Source: Nitrosotalea devaniterrae (GTDB lineage: Archaea; Thermoproteota; Nitrososphaeria; Nitrososphaerales; Nitrosopumilaceae). Taken from it: 64,000 nucleotides of DNA. Within the stretch, counting starts at the first letter, position 1; each line of letters starts with the position of its first letter. The stretch is from the NCBI GenBank assembly GCA_900065925.1, contig LN890280.1, positions 302,451 through 366,450 of the forward strand, given 5' to 3'. Positions 17,299-56,095 of the stretch are shown in pieces. Below the pieces are notes generated by a model that worked only from the letters and a program-made list of their open reading frames with translations, was not told where the DNA came from and made no database searches. A program made the translations under genes and the position numbers.

Positions 17299-18795
17299 AT
17301 GTTTGAAAAACTACGAAATGCATTTTCTATAGCGGCTAAAAGTTTTGGAGAAAAAGAATTAAAAGAAAAAGACGTAGAGGAAGTTTTGTTTGAGCTTGAG
17401 ATTGCACTGCTAGAATCTGATGTTGCAACCGAAGTCATTGATTCGCTAAAAGATGACCTAAAAAAACAACTGGTTGGTTCTACTGTAAATAAAGACAAGA
17501 TTGCAGAAGTTGTAAAACAAGAACTGCGAAAAAGCATCTCAAACATGTTTGATGGTGCAGGAAAAGTCGACATTCTATCTAATATTCAAAAAAAGAAGGA
17601 AAAGGGAGAACCATACATAATATCATTTATGGGCATTAATGGAACTGGCAAGACTACTACAATAGCAAAAGTTGCAAATTTTTTGAAGGAAAATAAATAT
17701 TCTGTTGTAATTGCAGCAGCTGATACCTATAGGGCAGGTGCAATAGAGCAGATAAGTGAACATGGAAAAAGGCTCAACGTCAAAGTGATTGCTCAAAACT
17801 ATGGTTCAGATCCTGCAGCAGTTTCTCGCGATGCAGTACTTTATGCAAAATCACACAAAATAGATTGCATCCTCATTGATACTGCCGGCAGAATGCAGAC
17901 AAGCAAAAACTTGATGGACCAAATATCTAAAATTAACAAAGTGGTAAATCCTGATCTCAAACTGTTTGTTGGAGATTCGTTGGCTGGAAACGACACTGTA
18001 AGTCAAGCTCGAGAGTTTCATAATTATACGAAATTTGATGGTGCCATACTTACAAAAAGCGATGCAGATGCACGTGGTGGAGCTGCAATATCAATTGTTA
18101 AAGTAACATCTAGTCCAATTCTTTACTTGGGTGTTGGCCAAGAATACAAGGACCTGAAATCTTTTGACAAAGATGTATTTTTGGAGTCTTTATTTGGTCC
18201 TGAACAAGTTGCTGAAGAGATAACAAAAAAAGTGGCAGAACCAAAACCAGAACCAAAAGTTGAACCAAAACCAGAACCAAAACCAGAACCAAAAGTTGAA
18301 CCAAAACCAGAACCAAAACCAGAACCAAAACCAGTTGAACCAAAAGTTGAACCAAAAGTTGAACCAAAAGTTGAACCAAAAGTTGAACCAAAAGTTGAAC
18401 CAAAAGTTGAACCAAAAGTTGAACCAAAAGTTGAACCAAAAGTTGAACCAAAAGTTGAACCAAAAGTTGAACCAAAAGTTGAACCAAAAGTTGAACCAAA
18501 ACCCGAAATTCATCAAGAAATATCTGATGAAGATCCATTTGCCGGGATTTCTACAAAAGATATCGAAAAATATTCTGACATTTTTGATGTACCGCCTCCA
18601 GAAAATGACAATCAAGCAAGGAAACTAGCTTCAGATATTAGAAAATGGATATCTGAAGGACGACCAAAAACTAAGAAAGATGATCCTAAACCAGAACCTA
18701 AAGTTGAATTAAAAACTGAAGAAAAAGAAATTGAAGAAACAAAAGATGAAAAGACTATAAAGAAACGTTCACTGTTTGGATGGAGGAAGAAATGA
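17299..18795 (+). CDS. ftsY: Signal recognition particle receptor FtsY with long repetitive C-terminal tail
   Basis: 498 residues. The NG GTPase that docks SRP-ribosome complexes at the membrane. N domain about 1-95. G domain with P-loop GINGTGKTT (112-120), DTAGRMQ (194-200) and TKSDADARGG (252-261). The NG core ends near residue 303. The remaining ~195 residues are unusual: a Pro/Lys/Glu/Val tract with 14 exact VEPK units, then a short segment (DEDPFAGISTKDIEKY... ARKLASDIRKWISEG) and a basic end ([11 protein letters not shown]). Bacterial FtsY extensions are N-terminal and acidic, so a C-terminal linker ending in a basic, perhaps membrane-contacting, peptide is notable. The last 4 nt overlap argF. 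Confidence 0.94.
   Translation: MFEKLRNAFSIAAKSFGEKELKEKDVEEVLFELEIALLESDVATEVIDSLKDDLKKQLVGSTVNKDKIAEVVKQELRKSISNMFDGAGKVDILSNIQKKKEKGEPYIISFMGINGTGKTTTIAKVANFLKENKYSVVIAAADTYRAGAIEQISEHGKRLNVKVIAQNYGSDPAAVSRDAVLYAKSHKIDCILIDTAGRMQTSKNLMDQISKINKVVNPDLKLFVGDSLAGNDTVSQAREFHNYTKFDGAILTKSDADARGGAAISIVKVTSSPILYLGVGQEYKDLKSFDKDVFLESLFGPEQVAEEITKKVAEPKPEPKVEPKPEPKPEPKVEPKPEPKPEPKPVEPKVEPKVEPKVEPKVEPKVEPKVEPKVEPKVEPKVEPKVEPKVEPKVEPKVEPKPEIHQEISDEDPFAGISTKDIEKYSDIFDVPPPENDNQARKLASDIRKWISEGRPKTKKDDPKPEPKVELKTEEKEIEETKDEKTIKKRSLFGWRKK
18334..18501 (+). repeat. 12-bp tandem repeat, 14 exact copies, inside ftsY
   Basis: Fourteen consecutive identical units of GTTGAACCAAAA, each encoding VEPK. They are preceded at about 18238-18333 by less regular EPKP/EPKV units built from the same words. 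The unit length is a multiple of three, so copy-number change would alter tail length without breaking the frame. Confidence 0.97.
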
Positions 18796-26600: not shown

Positions 26601-27704
26601 ATGGATATTATCGAAATAGTGCAAGCTAATCTTTTGACTCCTATTGTCTTGTTTTTTGCATTGGGAGTAGTAGCTGCTCGCATAAAATCAGATCTTAGAA
26701 TACCTGACCAGCTTTCCGCTTTTCTACCAATTTACCTACTTGCAGCAATAGGTCTACACGGAGGAATAGAAATGAGGAGAGGTGGCCTTGAACAGATTGC
26801 TATTCCAATAGCAGTAGCAGTGGCTCTGGCACTTGTCATGACCCTGAACCATTATCAAATTTTAAGAAGACTAGGCAAGTTCAACATATTTGATTCGTAT
26901 GCACTTGCATCTACATACGGCTCTGTCGGTGCTGTGACATTTTCGGTAGGGTTGTCATTTCTTAGAGATCAAAACATAACATCAGAAGGTTACATCACTG
27001 CAATACTTGCAGTACTAGAACCCATAAGTCTTGTATTTTCGATATTCCTTGTCAACATGACAGTTGAAAAGGAATTAAAAAAGCGAAAAGAATCATTTTC
27101 TAAAATCAAGGAAGATGGGACCAAATCGGAGATTTCTTACGATGTAAATTTTGAACCAAATATTGATGCCGATGCAAAAAACAAGACTGGAAACTTGAGA
27201 GAAATTCTGCATGAGACTATAACCGGAAAAGCTATTGTTATTCTTCTTGGTTGCATTGTAATTGGGTATATCATAGGTGACCATGGATTTGTGTCCATAA
27301 AGCCAGTCTTTGAGGATCTATTTTTTGGCGCATTGGTGATATTCATCCTTGAAATGGGAATACTTGCAGGACAGAGATTAAACGACATCAAAAAAGTAGG
27401 ACCGTTTCTGATTGCATTTGCAATTTTAATTCCAACATTAAATGGTACAATAGGAGTAATAATTGCAAATTATCTAGGTCTTAGCATTGGTGGAGCAGTA
27501 ATGTTTGGAGTGCTTTTTGCAAGTGCATCTTTTATTGCAGCACCTGCGGTACTTAGGACTGGCATTCCAAAAGCAAATCCTAGTCTATACATCACATCTG
27601 CATTAGGAATCACATTTCCATATATCATCATAGTATTACTGCCAATACTCTTGATTGTTTCCACAACGTTTCATAGCTTGGGTTCGATAAGTTTATTCGG
27701 TTAG
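26601..27704 (+). CDS. sbtA: SbtA-family sodium-dependent bicarbonate transporter
   Basis: 367 residues with about ten membrane helices in two inverted halves, separated by a charged cytosolic loop (about 155-205: KKRKESFSKIKEDGTKSE...). Matches SbtA (DUF897): IYLLAAIGLHGGIEMRR, YGSVGAVTFSVGLSFL in the first half and LFASASFIAAPAVLRTGIPKANPSLYI in the second. In cyanobacteria SbtA imports HCO3- with Na+. In an autotroph using the bicarbonate-consuming 3HP/4HB cycle the same substrate would make sense. Followed 18 nt later by a PII-like gene, as in sbtA-sbtB operons. Confidence 0.88.
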   Translation: MDIIEIVQANLLTPIVLFFALGVVAARIKSDLRIPDQLSAFLPIYLLAAIGLHGGIEMRRGGLEQIAIPIAVAVALALVMTLNHYQILRRLGKFNIFDSYALASTYGSVGAVTFSVGLSFLRDQNITSEGYITAILAVLEPISLVFSIFLVNMTVEKELKKRKESFSKIKEDGTKSEISYDVNFEPNIDADAKNKTGNLREILHETITGKAIVILLGCIVIGYIIGDHGFVSIKPVFEDLFFGALVIFILEMGILAGQRLNDIKKVGPFLIAFAILIPTLNGTIGVIIANYLGLSIGGAVMFGVLFASASFIAAPAVLRTGIPKANPSLYITSALGITFPYIIIVLLPILLIVSTTFHSLGSISLFG

Positions 27705-27722
27705 GTAACAGTGATAACCAAA

Positions 27723-28028
27723 ATGAAACTATATGATATTAAACTATTAACAATTACATACGAGATACTTGCACAGAACAAAGTAACTGAGATATTAAAA
27801 AAACACAAGATAACAGGATACACATCTTATGAGGTTGGCGGGATGGGTGACGAGGGATTGCGAGGACAGGGACTACCAGAAGAAAAAAATGTGAAAATCG
27901 AGGTGGTGTTGACTGAACAGAGTGCTGAAAAGATTATCGAAGAAATATTGAGAACATTGATGCCAGATTATGCCATAATTCTATACACTAGTGATGTTCA
28001 AGTCGCTAGGATGGAAAAATTCGTCTAA
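27723..28028 (+). CDS. sbtB: PII-like (SbtB-type) regulatory protein
   Basis: 101 residues with the PII ferredoxin-like fold: KLLTITYEILAQNKVTEILKKHKITGYTSYEV, a T-loop region GGMGDEGLRGQGLPEEKNVKIEVVL, and C-terminal ILYTSDVQVARMEKF. It lacks the GlnB uridylylation tyrosine motif. Adjacent to sbtA, where SbtB binds and gates the transporter in response to adenine nucleotides in cyanobacteria. Nucleotide sensing here is inferred. GTG 27711 is an alternative start. Confidence 0.82.
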   Translation: MKLYDIKLLTITYEILAQNKVTEILKKHKITGYTSYEVGGMGDEGLRGQGLPEEKNVKIEVVLTEQSAEKIIEEILRTLMPDYAIILYTSDVQVARMEKFV

Positions 28029-28065: not shown

Positions 28066-28446
28066 TTATCTAGTTTTAGACCATTTCTTCATCCACTGTA
28101 AAAGATCTATCATGGATTCTACAAGTTCCTGTCCTTTGTTGGTTAGCTTGTATTCCACCCGTGGAGGAATTTCATTATAAGACAACCTATCCAAGACTCC
28201 GCTTTTTTCCAGTTCTTTTAATCTGATTGCCAAAGTTCTACTACTGATTCCTCTCAAAGCTTGTCTGAACTGCTTGTATCTCACAGGTTCCGTAGTGCAG
28301 CACAATGGAATTAAAATCTCAAGTGTGCCTCTTTTGGTGATTATCTTTCTAAGTTTGGCAGTCTCAGACATTAAGGAAGACGCATCATATCCCTCAAAAT
28401 TGCAGCTCTCTTTTGCCATTGGAAGCGACTTTCTTTTAGTTTCCAT
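28066..28446 (-). CDS. HxlR-family winged-helix regulator, probable arsenic/redox sensor
   Basis: 126 residues. A winged helix of the HxlR type spans about 35-118 (RYKQFRQALRGISSRTLAIRLKELEKSGVLDRLSYNEIPPRVEYKLTNKGQEL). Cys15 near the N-terminus and Cys49-Cys50 before the recognition helix are candidate ligands for As(III) or thiol stress. Divergent from arsM with a 16-bp near-palindrome between. The reading frame runs back to 28608, but that would overlap arsM and bypass the operator, so ATG 28446 is taken. Control of the ars genes is inferred from position. Confidence 0.87.
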   Translation of the reverse strand: METKRKSLPMAKESCNFEGYDASSLMSETAKLRKIITKRGTLEILIPLCCTTEPVRYKQFRQALRGISSRTLAIRLKELEKSGVLDRLSYNEIPPRVEYKLTNKGQELVESMIDLLQWMKKWSKTR

Positions 28447-28480
28447 TTTTACACCAACTGCAATTGCTTGCCCTTGACAA

Positions 28481-28488
28481 CTTAAATG
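28481..28488 (+). promoter_or_regulatory. TATA box of arsM
   Basis: cttaaatg lies 23-30 nt before ATG 28511, immediately upstream of the inverted repeat, giving a leaderless transcript. Confidence 0.45.
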
Positions 28489-28504
28489 GTTTACTTTGTA
28501 AACT
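28489..28504. promoter_or_regulatory. Inverted repeat at the arsM promoter, candidate HxlR operator
   Basis: GTTTACTTTGTAAACT: exact 6-bp arms GTTTAC/GTAAAC around TTT. It sits between the TATA-like box and the arsM ATG, a classic archaeal repressor position. The same 16-mer recurs at 56080-56095. Confidence 0.65.
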
Positions 28505-28510
28505 TGTAAC

Positions 28511-29269
28511 ATGACAGATACAATAAAAGAAAAAGTAAAGGAAAGATATGCAAAGATTGCACTGACAGGTAATTCTGACTGTTGTTGTATGCCGGGAGAA
28601 TGCAGCACTGGTGATTCTCTGATTGATGCCAGTAAAATAATTGGATATGATCAAGAAGAATTAAAATCAATTCCAGGAGCAGCAATCTTGGGTGTGGGAT
28701 GTGGTGCACCAATAAAATTTGCCAATCTGAAAGATGGAGAAACGGTCGTGGATCTTGGTTCAGGTGCTGGAATAGACGCATTTCTATCTGCAAACAAAGT
28801 TTCAAAATCTGGCAAAGTAATTGGAATTGACATGACCGATGAGATGCTATACACAGCAAGAAAAAATGCAAAAGAGGGCAATTACACTAACGTAGAATTT
28901 CGAAAGGGAGACATTGAAAACAACATTCCCGTTGATAATGATACCGTCGATGCGGTTATCAGCAATTGTGTCATTAATCTTACTTCAAACAAGACAGATG
29001 CATTTAGAGAAGTTCATAGAATATTGAAGCAAGGTGGCAGGATGGTGATCTCGGATCTTGTAACTGACAGAGAAATTGAGCAAGGTCAAGTAAATGCAGA
29101 TCAATGGTGTAGTTGCATAGATGGTGCACTAACAAAGGAGAATTATATTCAAAGTATAAAAAAAGCTGGCTTTGAGAATGTGGATGTTTTGGAAGAGCGA
29201 ACATACATGGAAGGAGAGAAGGTAAATGGTAGAAAAATCTCAAGTCTTGTCATCAGAGCAATAAAGTGA
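28511..29269 (+). CDS. arsM: Arsenite S-adenosylmethionine methyltransferase
   Basis: 252 residues. Methylates As(III) using SAM. Rossmann SAM motif VVDLGSGAGIDAF (about 79-91). The three arsenite-binding cysteines of the family correspond to Cys64 (GVGCGAP), Cys153 (SNCVINL) and Cys202 (CSCIDGA). An extra N-terminal CCCMPGEC cluster (residues 24-31) is common in prokaryotic ArsM. First gene of arsM-arsC-aquaporin, divergent from the HxlR regulator. Confidence 0.93.
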   Translation: MTDTIKEKVKERYAKIALTGNSDCCCMPGECSTGDSLIDASKIIGYDQEELKSIPGAAILGVGCGAPIKFANLKDGETVVDLGSGAGIDAFLSANKVSKSGKVIGIDMTDEMLYTARKNAKEGNYTNVEFRKGDIENNIPVDNDTVDAVISNCVINLTSNKTDAFREVHRILKQGGRMVISDLVTDREIEQGQVNADQWCSCIDGALTKENYIQSIKKAGFENVDVLEERTYMEGEKVNGRKISSLVIRAIK

Positions 29270-29276
29270 TTATACC

Positions 29277-29705
29277 ATGAAATTTTTTGGAAAACACAAT
29301 GAAGGAAAAAAGATCCTCTTTGTATGTGTAGAGAATGCTGGAAGAAGTCAGATAGCAGAGGGATTCTTTAGAAAGTATGCTCCAAAGGGATGGACCACAA
29401 TCAGTGCAGGGTCAAGACCAACGCCAGAGATTAATCCTGTTGCAGTGGATGTAATGAAAGAAGTTGGGATAGATATCAGTAAACAAAAACCAAAGGAATT
29501 ATCTGAGGAACTGATTCGTTCTTCATTTATCAAGGTGAGCATGGGTTGTATGGAACAGACAGAATGCCCTGCTGTATTTCTTGGAAATCATCAGGATTGG
29601 GGCATTGAGGATCCAAAGGGAAAACCAATTGAGAAAGTACGTGAGATCCGAGATGAAATAGAAAAAAAGGTAAAGGAACTTGCCACAAATCTTGAACTTA
29701 GTTAG
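29277..29705 (+). CDS. arsC: Arsenate reductase, low-molecular-weight phosphatase fold
   Basis: 142 residues. Reduces arsenate to arsenite by a cysteine relay. The P-loop CVENAGRS (Cys17-X5-Arg23-Ser24) lies near the N-terminus. Cys91 and Cys97 (SMGCMEQTECP) correspond to the two relay cysteines of thioredoxin-coupled ArsC. The DP of the general-acid loop is in GIEDPKG. Produces the arsenite used by ArsM. A tyrosine phosphatase is less likely given the cysteine pair and the context. Overlaps the aquaporin gene. Confidence 0.92.
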   Translation: MKFFGKHNEGKKILFVCVENAGRSQIAEGFFRKYAPKGWTTISAGSRPTPEINPVAVDVMKEVGIDISKQKPKELSEELIRSSFIKVSMGCMEQTECPAVFLGNHQDWGIEDPKGKPIEKVREIRDEIEKKVKELATNLELS

Positions 29706-30366
29706 TAAATTAACTTCTAATCAGAAGATATTTTTTGCTGAAATTATTGGTACATTTGTTGTGGTGGTTTGTGCCACAGGATCAGTGGTATTGATTGCAA
29801 AATCCAATGGAACGATAGGATCTTGGTTTGAGGCATTTGCTCCATTTGTTGGAGTTTGTTTGATGGTGTATGCATTTGGAAAAGTCTCACGTGCTCATTT
29901 TAACCCCGCAGTTACAGTATCATATCTTATAACAAAACACATCACAAAAAAACAACTGCCAATCTATCTTGCAGCGGAAACAATTGGCGCATTTTTGGGA
30001 ATAATATTTGTCAAGAATGTTATCGGAACAGAAGCCCATCTGGGAGTAAATGCTCCTAACTACTCTTTTCCACTGTGGACGATTTTTGGAGTAGAGGTAT
30101 TGGCAACAGCCCTCTTGATGGCAGTAATTATGGGCGTTGTTCATACTAATGGATTGAGGGGTTTTAGTGGGATTGCAATTGGTGGAATAATAGGTATTGA
30201 TATTTTCTTTTTGGCGTTTATTTCTGGTGCATCAATGAATCCTATTCGTTCGCTTGCCCCTGCTGTATTTTCAGGCGTTTTTGATAATCTATGGTTGTAT
30301 TGGACTGCAACTTTTGTAGGCTCTATGCTAGTTGGTATTGTTTACAGAAAAAAATTTGTAAAATAA
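29692..30366 (+). CDS. MIP-family channel (aquaporin/aquaglyceroporin), ars-linked
   Basis: About 224 residues with six membrane helices and two half-helices. First NPA intact (HFNPAVT), second changed to NPI (SMNPIRS) with the following Arg kept. As(III) as As(OH)3 passes through aquaglyceroporins, and in some bacteria an aquaporin (AqpS) replaces ArsB/Acr3 pumps in ars operons. No pump gene is visible here, so this may be the exit route. Starts at TTG 29692 (or 29680), overlapping the arsC end. Confidence 0.88.
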   Translation: MNLVSKLTSNQKIFFAEIIGTFVVVVCATGSVVLIAKSNGTIGSWFEAFAPFVGVCLMVYAFGKVSRAHFNPAVTVSYLITKHITKKQLPIYLAAETIGAFLGIIFVKNVIGTEAHLGVNAPNYSFPLWTIFGVEVLATALLMAVIMGVVHTNGLRGFSGIAIGGIIGIDIFFLAFISGASMNPIRSLAPAVFSGVFDNLWLYWTATFVGSMLVGIVYRKKFVK

Positions 30367-53497: not shown

Positions 53498-54291
53498 TCA
53501 TAGATTGTCATACCCATCTTAACCGATATGAATCTCTAGAAAAAATAGTATTACTTGAAGATCGTGTAAAAGAATTACTTGTTACAATGGTGAGCAATAA
53601 TGTAGATTATGCACTTGTTCTTTCTTCATATCTGGTAAACGAAGGAAGACCATCTACAGAAGACTTGATTCAATCAGTAAAAGGACACGACAATTTAGGA
53701 ATCATTGCAGGATATAGCATAGATAATCACACTGATGAGGATCTGAAAAATTATAGAACATGGATCAAGGATGGATTAGTGAAAGGCTTGAAGATTTATT
53801 CTGGTTATGAACATTATTATCCGTACGATCAAAAATATCAAAAAGTTTACGACTTGTGTATGGAATTTGATGTGCCAGTTATGATACATACAGGAGATAC
53901 ATTTTCTGAAAAAGGCAAACTACGATATTCTCACCCACTAAATATTGACGAATTGGCAGTAGACAATCCCGAATTAAAAATAGTCATGTGTCACTTGGGA
54001 AACCCATGGATTGAAGATTGTCAAGAAATTGTATACAAAAATGACAATGTTTATGCAGATATGTCTGGTCTTGCAGTCGGTAGATTTGACCATTTTTTTG
54101 AAAAAATAATGGTCGAAAAAGTTGCAGAATTGATCAATTATGCAGGTGAGCCACGTTATCTTTTGTATGGCACTGACTGGCCAATATCGGATATGGATTC
54201 ATATCTTAATTTTGTTGCAAAGTTGAAATTAAAGCCAAAGTTTAGGGAGGAGTTAATGTACAAAAACGCTAAAAGACTTTTCAAAATCTAA
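53494..54291 (+). CDS. TIM-barrel amidohydrolase (Amidohydro_2/ACMSD-like)
   Basis: 265 residues. Metal ligands are visible: DCHTHLN (HxH) at the start, MIHTGD, VMCHLGNPW and the Asp of LLYGTDWPIS. The fold is that of the amidohydrolase-2 group (decarboxylases and hydrolases). It probably acts on a substrate related to the acetyltransferase upstream with which it overlaps by 4 nt. The reaction is not identifiable. Convergent with mscS, 4-nt overlap. Confidence 0.88.
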   Translation: MIIDCHTHLNRYESLEKIVLLEDRVKELLVTMVSNNVDYALVLSSYLVNEGRPSTEDLIQSVKGHDNLGIIAGYSIDNHTDEDLKNYRTWIKDGLVKGLKIYSGYEHYYPYDQKYQKVYDLCMEFDVPVMIHTGDTFSEKGKLRYSHPLNIDELAVDNPELKIVMCHLGNPWIEDCQEIVYKNDNVYADMSGLAVGRFDHFFEKIMVEKVAELINYAGEPRYLLYGTDWPISDMDSYLNFVAKLKLKPKFREELMYKNAKRLFKI

Positions 54292-56060
54292 TAATCATCA
54301 GATAGGGATATGTCCCCAACTCCAAATTGTGATTTGATTTTTTCCCGCTCTGCATCTACTTTGGAGATTTCTTCAGATTCTTTTTTTTCATCTCCTTGAT
54401 AAATAGTTCTTATCGGCCATGGTATTCGTATACCATGTTTCTTAAATTCTTCATATAATATCATACGCATATCTGTCTGTACTTTAAAATGTGATCCGAA
54501 ATCCTTTGCATACACCCATAAGGAAAAATCCAATGAGGATTCATTAAAGTCTTCAAATCTCACTACTGGTTGATCAATGTCTGCAAGAGTATTTTTATCG
54601 CATCCGCAACTTGGTTTATCTTTCTCCAGATATGGGCAACTTTTTTGAATAACTAGATGTCTTCCCTTTTCATCTTTAGACTTAATCATGGTCAATTTTC
54701 CAACTTTGATCAATATGGATGCCACTTGTTTCGGATCATTAAGATATGAAACTCCAACTTTAACTGTGGCCGGAACATATGAAAATTCTTTTGTGAAATT
54801 TAGAATCTGTTCACTCATCAATTGATTAGTAGGGATGATTGCTAATGATTCATTGAGTGCATGCCTTATGTATATGACTCCAGGGGTTATACTGTGTACA
54901 TATCCATTAAATCCAGTGTTTAATTGGATTCTGTCTCCTTCTTGTATTATCTTGTTCTTTCTAATTACTACATATGCAAAGTAGTTTTCCATAGTTTGCT
55001 TAAGTGCTAATCCTACTCCTACTCCAAGCCCACCTGTCGCAGTAGCAACAACCACAAGATCTACGCCCCACCATGCAATTACGCCTAAGATAGTCACAAT
55101 GAAAATTCCCGCTGGAAGGATTTGACTAACGGATCTAGGCATTGATTTTTGTTTTTGTTCAAAGTATCCAGGAGGTTTGCCCCCGGGAATAACATATTCA
55201 TAATCATTAAGCCGCTTGACTTCCATCCAGTCATCTATTGAATAAACCTCGTGGGGTCCAGATTTCAGACTCATTACACGCCCAGAAGCATTGTTTCCAT
55301 TCAAACAAAAATTCAGATATCGATCATATTTTTCTCGCTCGGTTTCTTTCCATTTCCCAAATGGATCTTTTATGATTGCTTGATAACTTCCAATGGTCAT
55401 TCCGCCTATTCGATAATTTTCTAAATGTCTGCGACCCTCTTCCGTATCAAGATATTTTTGAAATTCCTCTCTAGTAAATTCTATGGGAATTTCTGTAGGA
55501 GACATCCACTTGAAAAACTTGTGAAATAGATCTGGAGTATTTTTACAAATACCGTATCGTTTTCCACTACATACATCACAGTTACCGCATGGATCATCTA
55601 CAAAACCGCGTTTTATCTTCCAATTCTCAAAATCGTCTCTTTCTTTTTGATCCGAATCACGCTTTCGCAAAATAATGGGAACCAATTGAGATATTGTGTA
55701 TCCAATAATTAGAATATTAATAGAATTTAGGATCATGGCAAAAGTTTGTTTCACATCGTGCATTCCAGTAAATGGGACCTCTGATTCATCAAATAGATCG
55801 TAAATTTGAATGTAAAAATTTGTAGTGGATATTAAGGCCAAGGCAAAAAATGGTAATACTGCTTTTCGTATAAAACGTGAAAGATGAGGCCGGACATAAC
55901 TGAATTTTAGCCTACGAATCCAATTTGCAAATTTATAATAAATTGAAAAAATTGTTACTAGGCCAACTATCAAAATGAATAATTGAATCTGGAGATCACT
56001 ATTTGACAGTATTAAGGATGAAAGATTTTGAATTTGGCCAGATGAAATCGGGTCTACCAT
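54288..56060 (-). CDS. MscS-family mechanosensitive channel with two cysteine clusters
   Basis: 590 residues, twice the size of E. coli MscS. Membrane helices at about 25-42, 66-84, 108-132 and 314-345, with the pore helix TATGGLGVGVGLALKQTMENYFAYVVI (about 340-366) and the MscS beta domain IIQEGDRIQLNTGFNGYVHSITPGVIYIRH. A large cytosolic insert between the third helix and the pore (about 133-313) holds Cys158, 161, 164 and 172 (CGNCDVCSGKRYGIC). A second cluster lies in the C-terminal domain: Cys475, 485, 487. Metal, Fe-S or thiol sensing is inferred. Preceded by the same 16-bp near-palindrome as arsM. Confidence 0.9.
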   Translation of the reverse strand: MVDPISSGQIQNLSSLILSNSDLQIQLFILIVGLVTIFSIYYKFANWIRRLKFSYVRPHLSRFIRKAVLPFFALALISTTNFYIQIYDLFDESEVPFTGMHDVKQTFAMILNSINILIIGYTISQLVPIILRKRDSDQKERDDFENWKIKRGFVDDPCGNCDVCSGKRYGICKNTPDLFHKFFKWMSPTEIPIEFTREEFQKYLDTEEGRRHLENYRIGGMTIGSYQAIIKDPFGKWKETEREKYDRYLNFCLNGNNASGRVMSLKSGPHEVYSIDDWMEVKRLNDYEYVIPGGKPPGYFEQKQKSMPRSVSQILPAGIFIVTILGVIAWWGVDLVVVATATGGLGVGVGLALKQTMENYFAYVVIRKNKIIQEGDRIQLNTGFNGYVHSITPGVIYIRHALNESLAIIPTNQLMSEQILNFTKEFSYVPATVKVGVSYLNDPKQVASILIKVGKLTMIKSKDEKGRHLVIQKSCPYLEKDKPSCGCDKNTLADIDQPVVRFEDFNESSLDFSLWVYAKDFGSHFKVQTDMRMILYEEFKKHGIRIPWPIRTIYQGDEKKESEEISKVDAEREKIKSQFGVGDISLSDDY

Positions 56061-56079: not shown

Positions 56080-56095
56080 GTTTACTTTGTAAACT
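56080..56095. promoter_or_regulatory. Second copy of the 16-bp near-palindrome, upstream of the MscS gene
   Basis: GTTTACTTTGTAAACT, identical to 28489-28504, lies 20-35 nt before the MscS ATG (56060). It overlaps the expected TATA/BRE position of a leaderless transcript. Confidence 0.6.

Follow-up and report, generated by a model that had tools for sequence, protein, structure and literature searches.

Regulators of the HxlR/DUF24 family, such as YodB, HypR/YybR, QsrR, and HxlR, act on a palindromic site at the divergent promoter of their target. We analyzed a 64,000-nucleotide stretch of the Nitrosotalea devaniterrae genome (the window), in which a gene for a protein of this family stands next to an ars cluster. 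The protein resembles the HxlR/DUF24 regulators in its PF01638 match, its small winged helix, and its profile matches to solved structures, and the likeness of its palindromic site to the family operators is one of description. It differs from them in its location at an arsM/arsC/MIP cluster and in an invariant CC pair (C49-C50) together with C15. Similarities to the ArsR (SmtB/ArsR-family) As(III)-responsive repressors are also apparent, namely a regulator gene by an ars cluster, an operator-like site overlapping the promoter, and candidate metalloid-binding cysteines, whereas the regulator here comes from the HxlR family and its arsenic sensing is presumptive. Some bacterial ars clusters include a MIP channel (aqpS type). 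The present cluster likewise has an arsC-like reductase adjacent to a MIP channel, but it is archaeal, contains arsM, and has HxlR in place of ArsR. In the open-licence literature, we found no mention of HxlR with arsM or arsenite, and nothing on HxlR operators.

The hxlR gene (28066-28446, minus strand) encodes a 126-aa winged-helix regulator (PF01638, 75.1 bits against a cut-off of 20.8) and is divergent from three genes on the plus strand. These are arsM for an arsenite methyltransferase (28511-29269; NCBIfam NF008823, 281 bits, exceeding the cut-off of 263), a gene for an arsC-like arsenate reductase with the low-molecular-weight phosphatase (LMWPc) fold (29277-29705; PF01451, 74.3 bits), and, as the final gene of the cluster, one for a MIP-family channel (29680-30366; PF00230, 128.5 bits). 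The arsC-like protein also matched NF010053 with 89.6 bits, under its curated cut-off. Directly before the ars locus, the gene for an Sbt-type bicarbonate transporter (26601-27704) is followed by that for a P-II-like protein (27711-28028). The divergent hxlR/ars promoter contains the operator-like palindrome GTTTACTTTGTAAACT (28489-28504), which lies between the abutting TATA-like sequence ACTTAAATG (28480-28488) and the arsM ATG (28511). The position of ACTTAAATG suggests that it is a TATA box, and it may serve the divergent hxlR as well as arsM. A second block, TTACACCAACTG (28449-28460), lies directly 5' of the hxlR start codon and shows column conservation across genera; it is possibly the hxlR initiator region or a site for an accessory regulator.

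The original prediction was that GTTTACTTTGTAAACT recurs exactly at 56080-56095, upstream of a gene for an MscS-family channel, and both positions proved correct; the whole window contains no further exact copy. The accompanying argument, that a repeat this long at two promoters is unlikely by chance, is weak, because the window (63% AT) holds about a dozen exact 16-mer repeats at dispersed positions where a first-order Markov null expects 3.75, a count that leaves out one tandem-repeat gene at 18.2-18.5 kb. We therefore rejected repeat length as evidence. The unusual feature is the perfect dyad in two promoters. The tandem-repeat region (18236-18496, in an ORF region) is built of 12-bp repeats of the GAACCAAAAGTT type and is the source of most exact 16-mer repeats in the window.

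In the closed genome (a single contig of 1,805,304 bases), GTTTACNNNGTAAAC occurs three times: at the ars site, at the mscS site, and once within an ORF. Two of the five one-mismatch sites also lie within ORFs. The others overlap a start codon (L007), overlap a gene end (L008), or are intergenic. The intergenic site GTTTATCACGTAAAC (L006:2024-2038; G000:C1:217023-217037) adjoins a FemAB-like gene, and its locus could not be aligned to any of 36 congeners. With the other genomic sites mostly in or overlapping genes, we rejected a wider regulon beyond ars and mscS.

The ars element is conserved well beyond this species. The genus has 22 HxlR loci that could be assessed (one more, in G108, runs off its contig), and every one of them carries GTTTAC-N3-(G)TAAAC at 41-42 nt from the hxlR ATG, fused to the TATA-like ACTTAAATG. 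Nine of these loci have the exact element, 12 have one mismatch, and one has two mismatches. Exact or near copies occupy the same position in at least five other genera. The regions upstream of arsM in six genera show ACTT(A/T)AAT(G/A) followed directly by GTTTAC-N3-GTAAAC or a one-mismatch version, and the same TATA-like pattern appears in 34 aligned HxlR-ars regions from this and other genera. There, GTTTAC is invariant and the distal half-site is mildly variable; this alignment was collected with an anchor including GTTTAC, while the arsM-upstream and hxlR-centred surveys were not so anchored and agree with it. Exact GTTTACNNNGTAAAC is present in 29 of 151 family genomes, 20 of which have one copy at the HxlR-ars locus. 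The composite ACTTWAATRGTTTACNNNNTAAAC was found in 33 of 400 genomes of the class, all within this family, and the reversed control gave no matches. It occurs once per genome, except in G079, which has two ars copies, and all eight loci fetched from this search encode HxlR beside the element.

The HxlR gene is linked to arsenic genes across species, since an arsM or arsC-like start follows in the genus loci that were read. At several of these loci, the arsC-like start comes after the element and arsM is elsewhere or was not found, and the element is nevertheless retained, indicating that it tracks the HxlR gene. Because the conserved element co-occurs with this gene, the simplest interpretation is that the HxlR protein binds it. 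By comparative sequence evidence, the ars palindrome is a real cis-element that resembles a binding site, has been conserved in evolution, and travels with the HxlR gene in ammonia-oxidising archaea. Some ars copies have decayed. The copies L029 and L131 (G079:C86) and L033 (G058:C31), with broken arsM, retain an exact GTTTACTTTGTAAAC site; G058 has lost most of arsM, and HxlR of the second ars copy in G079 has internal stops. At L064 (G067:C48), internal stops make arsM a pseudogene, and the HxlR gene and the operator-like site are intact.

The predicted structure of the HxlR protein is a winged helix with the element order H-H-H-H-E-E-H and a mean pLDDT of 73. Profile matches to solved structures included YodB (5hs7), YybR (4a5n), QsrR (4hqe), and HxlR (7bze). 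The profile search detected no ArsR/SmtB HTH domain in the protein, only the HxlR domain and a sub-threshold HTH_34 match. The closest HxlR genes found are in Thaumarchaeota and Nitrosopumilus records. In an alignment of 16 ars-linked HxlR orthologues (62-100% identity), residues S68, S69, T71, L72, R75, L76, E78, and L79 of the recognition-helix segment are invariant, as are C15, C49, and C50. The N-terminal region around Cys15 is of low confidence in the model. A Nitrosopumilus protein of 61% identity retains the three cysteines and has a GTTTACTAGATAAAC site upstream of its gene. Both other HxlR paralogues in this genome lack the CC pair. That three cysteines are invariant in a regulator encoded at an ars locus suggests As(III) capture, and C15, C49, and C50 are candidate residues for As(III) binding on an HxlR scaffold.

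The analysis shows that the element is conserved, sits at a fixed position, and accompanies the HxlR gene; protein binding, repression, and arsenic as the ligand are inferences. A dimer of the HxlR protein would most likely bind GTTTAC-N3-GTAAAC, downstream of the TATA box and ahead of the arsM start codon, or ahead of the arsC start in species that have no arsM there. Going by archaeal promoter anatomy, this is the position expected of a repressor site, and a conserved palindrome at a divergent promoter is consistent with dimer binding of a palindromic operator by HxlR. Bound HxlR would keep the arsM-arsC-MIP cluster from being transcribed, and As(III), captured plausibly by the invariant Cys15, Cys49, and Cys50, would free the promoter. 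The best overall explanation, which we consider very probable, is that 28489-28504 is the operator of a divergent HxlR-family repressor of arsM-arsC-MIP that is released by As(III), and that the mscS copy is at best an extra target.

The mscS gene (54288-56060, minus strand) encodes a 590-aa mechanosensitive channel of the MscS family (PF00924 and PF21082, both above the gathering cut-offs). The palindrome at 56080-56095, a candidate second HxlR site, ends 19 nt before the ATG (56060) and has its 15-bp core at -34 to -20. A close mscS orthologue exists in just four of the 37 genus genomes, namely this genome (G000), G113, G160, and G067, and in G000 mscS is divergent from a KamA-like radical SAM gene that also adjoins mscS in the other three. 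The site matches at 15/15 positions in G000, 14/15 in G113 (ATTTACAAAGTAAAC), and 11/15 in G160 (ATTTGCAAGGCAAAC). It is not recognisable upstream of mscS in G067, though this genome contains both the HxlR gene and an intact ars element. The ars HxlR is present and the ars element is intact in G113. The 86%-complete draft of G160 yielded no ars-HxlR orthologue, and the HxlR proteins found in it are more distant. For 27 mscS orthologues from other genera, which are about 55% identical, the 120 nt upstream contained nothing under four mismatches, and several of these genomes nevertheless carry an HxlR-ars locus. The site is conserved upstream of two of four congeneric mscS genes and none of the 27 from other genera. 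Between G000 and G113, the site is 14/15 identical and the near flanks are 70-79% identical, which is only mildly unusual (binomial 0.035-0.145), and no other stretch within ~110 nt of the mscS ATG reaches 14/15.

These data leave the mscS copy open to several explanations. It may be a coincidence, an occasional perfect match of the kind that AT-rich promoters produce, noticed through sharing the window with a real operator. Across the 151 family genomes, exact noncoding copies were found only at ars promoters and at this one mscS promoter, which agrees with part of what the original prediction anticipated. However, 11 of the 12 exact non-ars matches lie inside genes, and with a noncoding fraction of ~7.5% in the window, the lone noncoding match is about what chance would give across the family. 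The failure of G160 and G067 to keep the site and the abundance of dispersed exact 16-mer repeats in the window also fit a coincidence. The expectation for a single genome points the other way: 0.015 exact noncoding sites with any spacer and 0.0005 identical 16-mers, so that for this genome alone such a match has a probability of ~0.015 or less. The family-wide count and the single-genome probability pull in opposite directions, and the 14/15 retention at the equivalent position in G113 adds modest support to a functional site. We give coincidence slightly less than an even chance. That HxlR binds the mscS site, at best as a lineage-restricted additional target of the ars regulator, is likewise a possibility just short of even. 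The fuller scenario, in which HxlR with its three-cysteine As(III) site would repress both the arsM-arsC-MIP cluster and the unlinked mscS in this species and G113, and arsenic exposure would raise the amount of the channel, seems unlikely to us. The idea that HxlR as one regulator controls both promoters thus holds up on the arsM side, where the palindrome is conserved, operator-like, and co-occurs with the HxlR gene. Its extension to mscS is not established, as the site is exact only here, partial in G113, degraded in G160, and absent in G067.

The mscS palindrome could instead be a real operator of a different regulator, with an accidental resemblance to the ars-HxlR site. The genome does encode two further HxlR paralogues, but by eye no similar palindrome lies upstream of them. 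Upstream of mscS in G160 (L099), ATTTGCAAGGCAAAC remains a perfect dyad through two matched substitutions (TTTAC/GTAAA to TTTGC/GCAAA), and this genome is the one in which the ars-HxlR orthologue was not found. However, a hand estimate puts the chance of such matched changes at roughly 0.1, which is not rare, and the orthologue could be missing from the incomplete assembly. We regard a different regulator as improbable. That the mscS palindrome works as a hairpin in the leader RNA instead of as a DNA site is hardly credible. A 6-bp stem with a 3-nt loop is possible in G000 (-3.6 kcal/mol), but this fold is not clearly beyond shuffled sequences (z -1.7), the G113 sequence has no stable fold (0 kcal/mol), and that of G160 is no better than shuffles; we rejected the hairpin as not supported by the folding of these sequences. 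At the ars promoter, the corresponding question is whether the element belongs to the basal promoter, as TATA plus initiator, and is not a regulator site. GTTTAC is the more conserved half-site, and no gap separates it from the TATA-like ACTTAAATG, so that the needs of the basal promoter could account for some of the conservation. A basal element would recur at many promoters, however, and the composite is found once per genome, the loci examined being hxlR loci. The dyad is also retained with varied spacers. A purely basal origin of the element accordingly appears quite improbable, and the HxlR operator is the reading we prefer for the ars site.

If the mscS link, for which the support comes from one species and a near-match in another, is true, it would tie a mechanosensitive channel, a membrane release valve, to arsenic stress. 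Such an HxlR link between the channel and the arsenic response would extend to a small lineage at most. For the ars promoter, the analysis defines a precise DNA site and three specific cysteines as test targets. The conservation of an HxlR operator-like element at ars clusters of archaea suggests that ammonia-oxidising archaea have an arsenic regulator on a non-ArsR scaffold.
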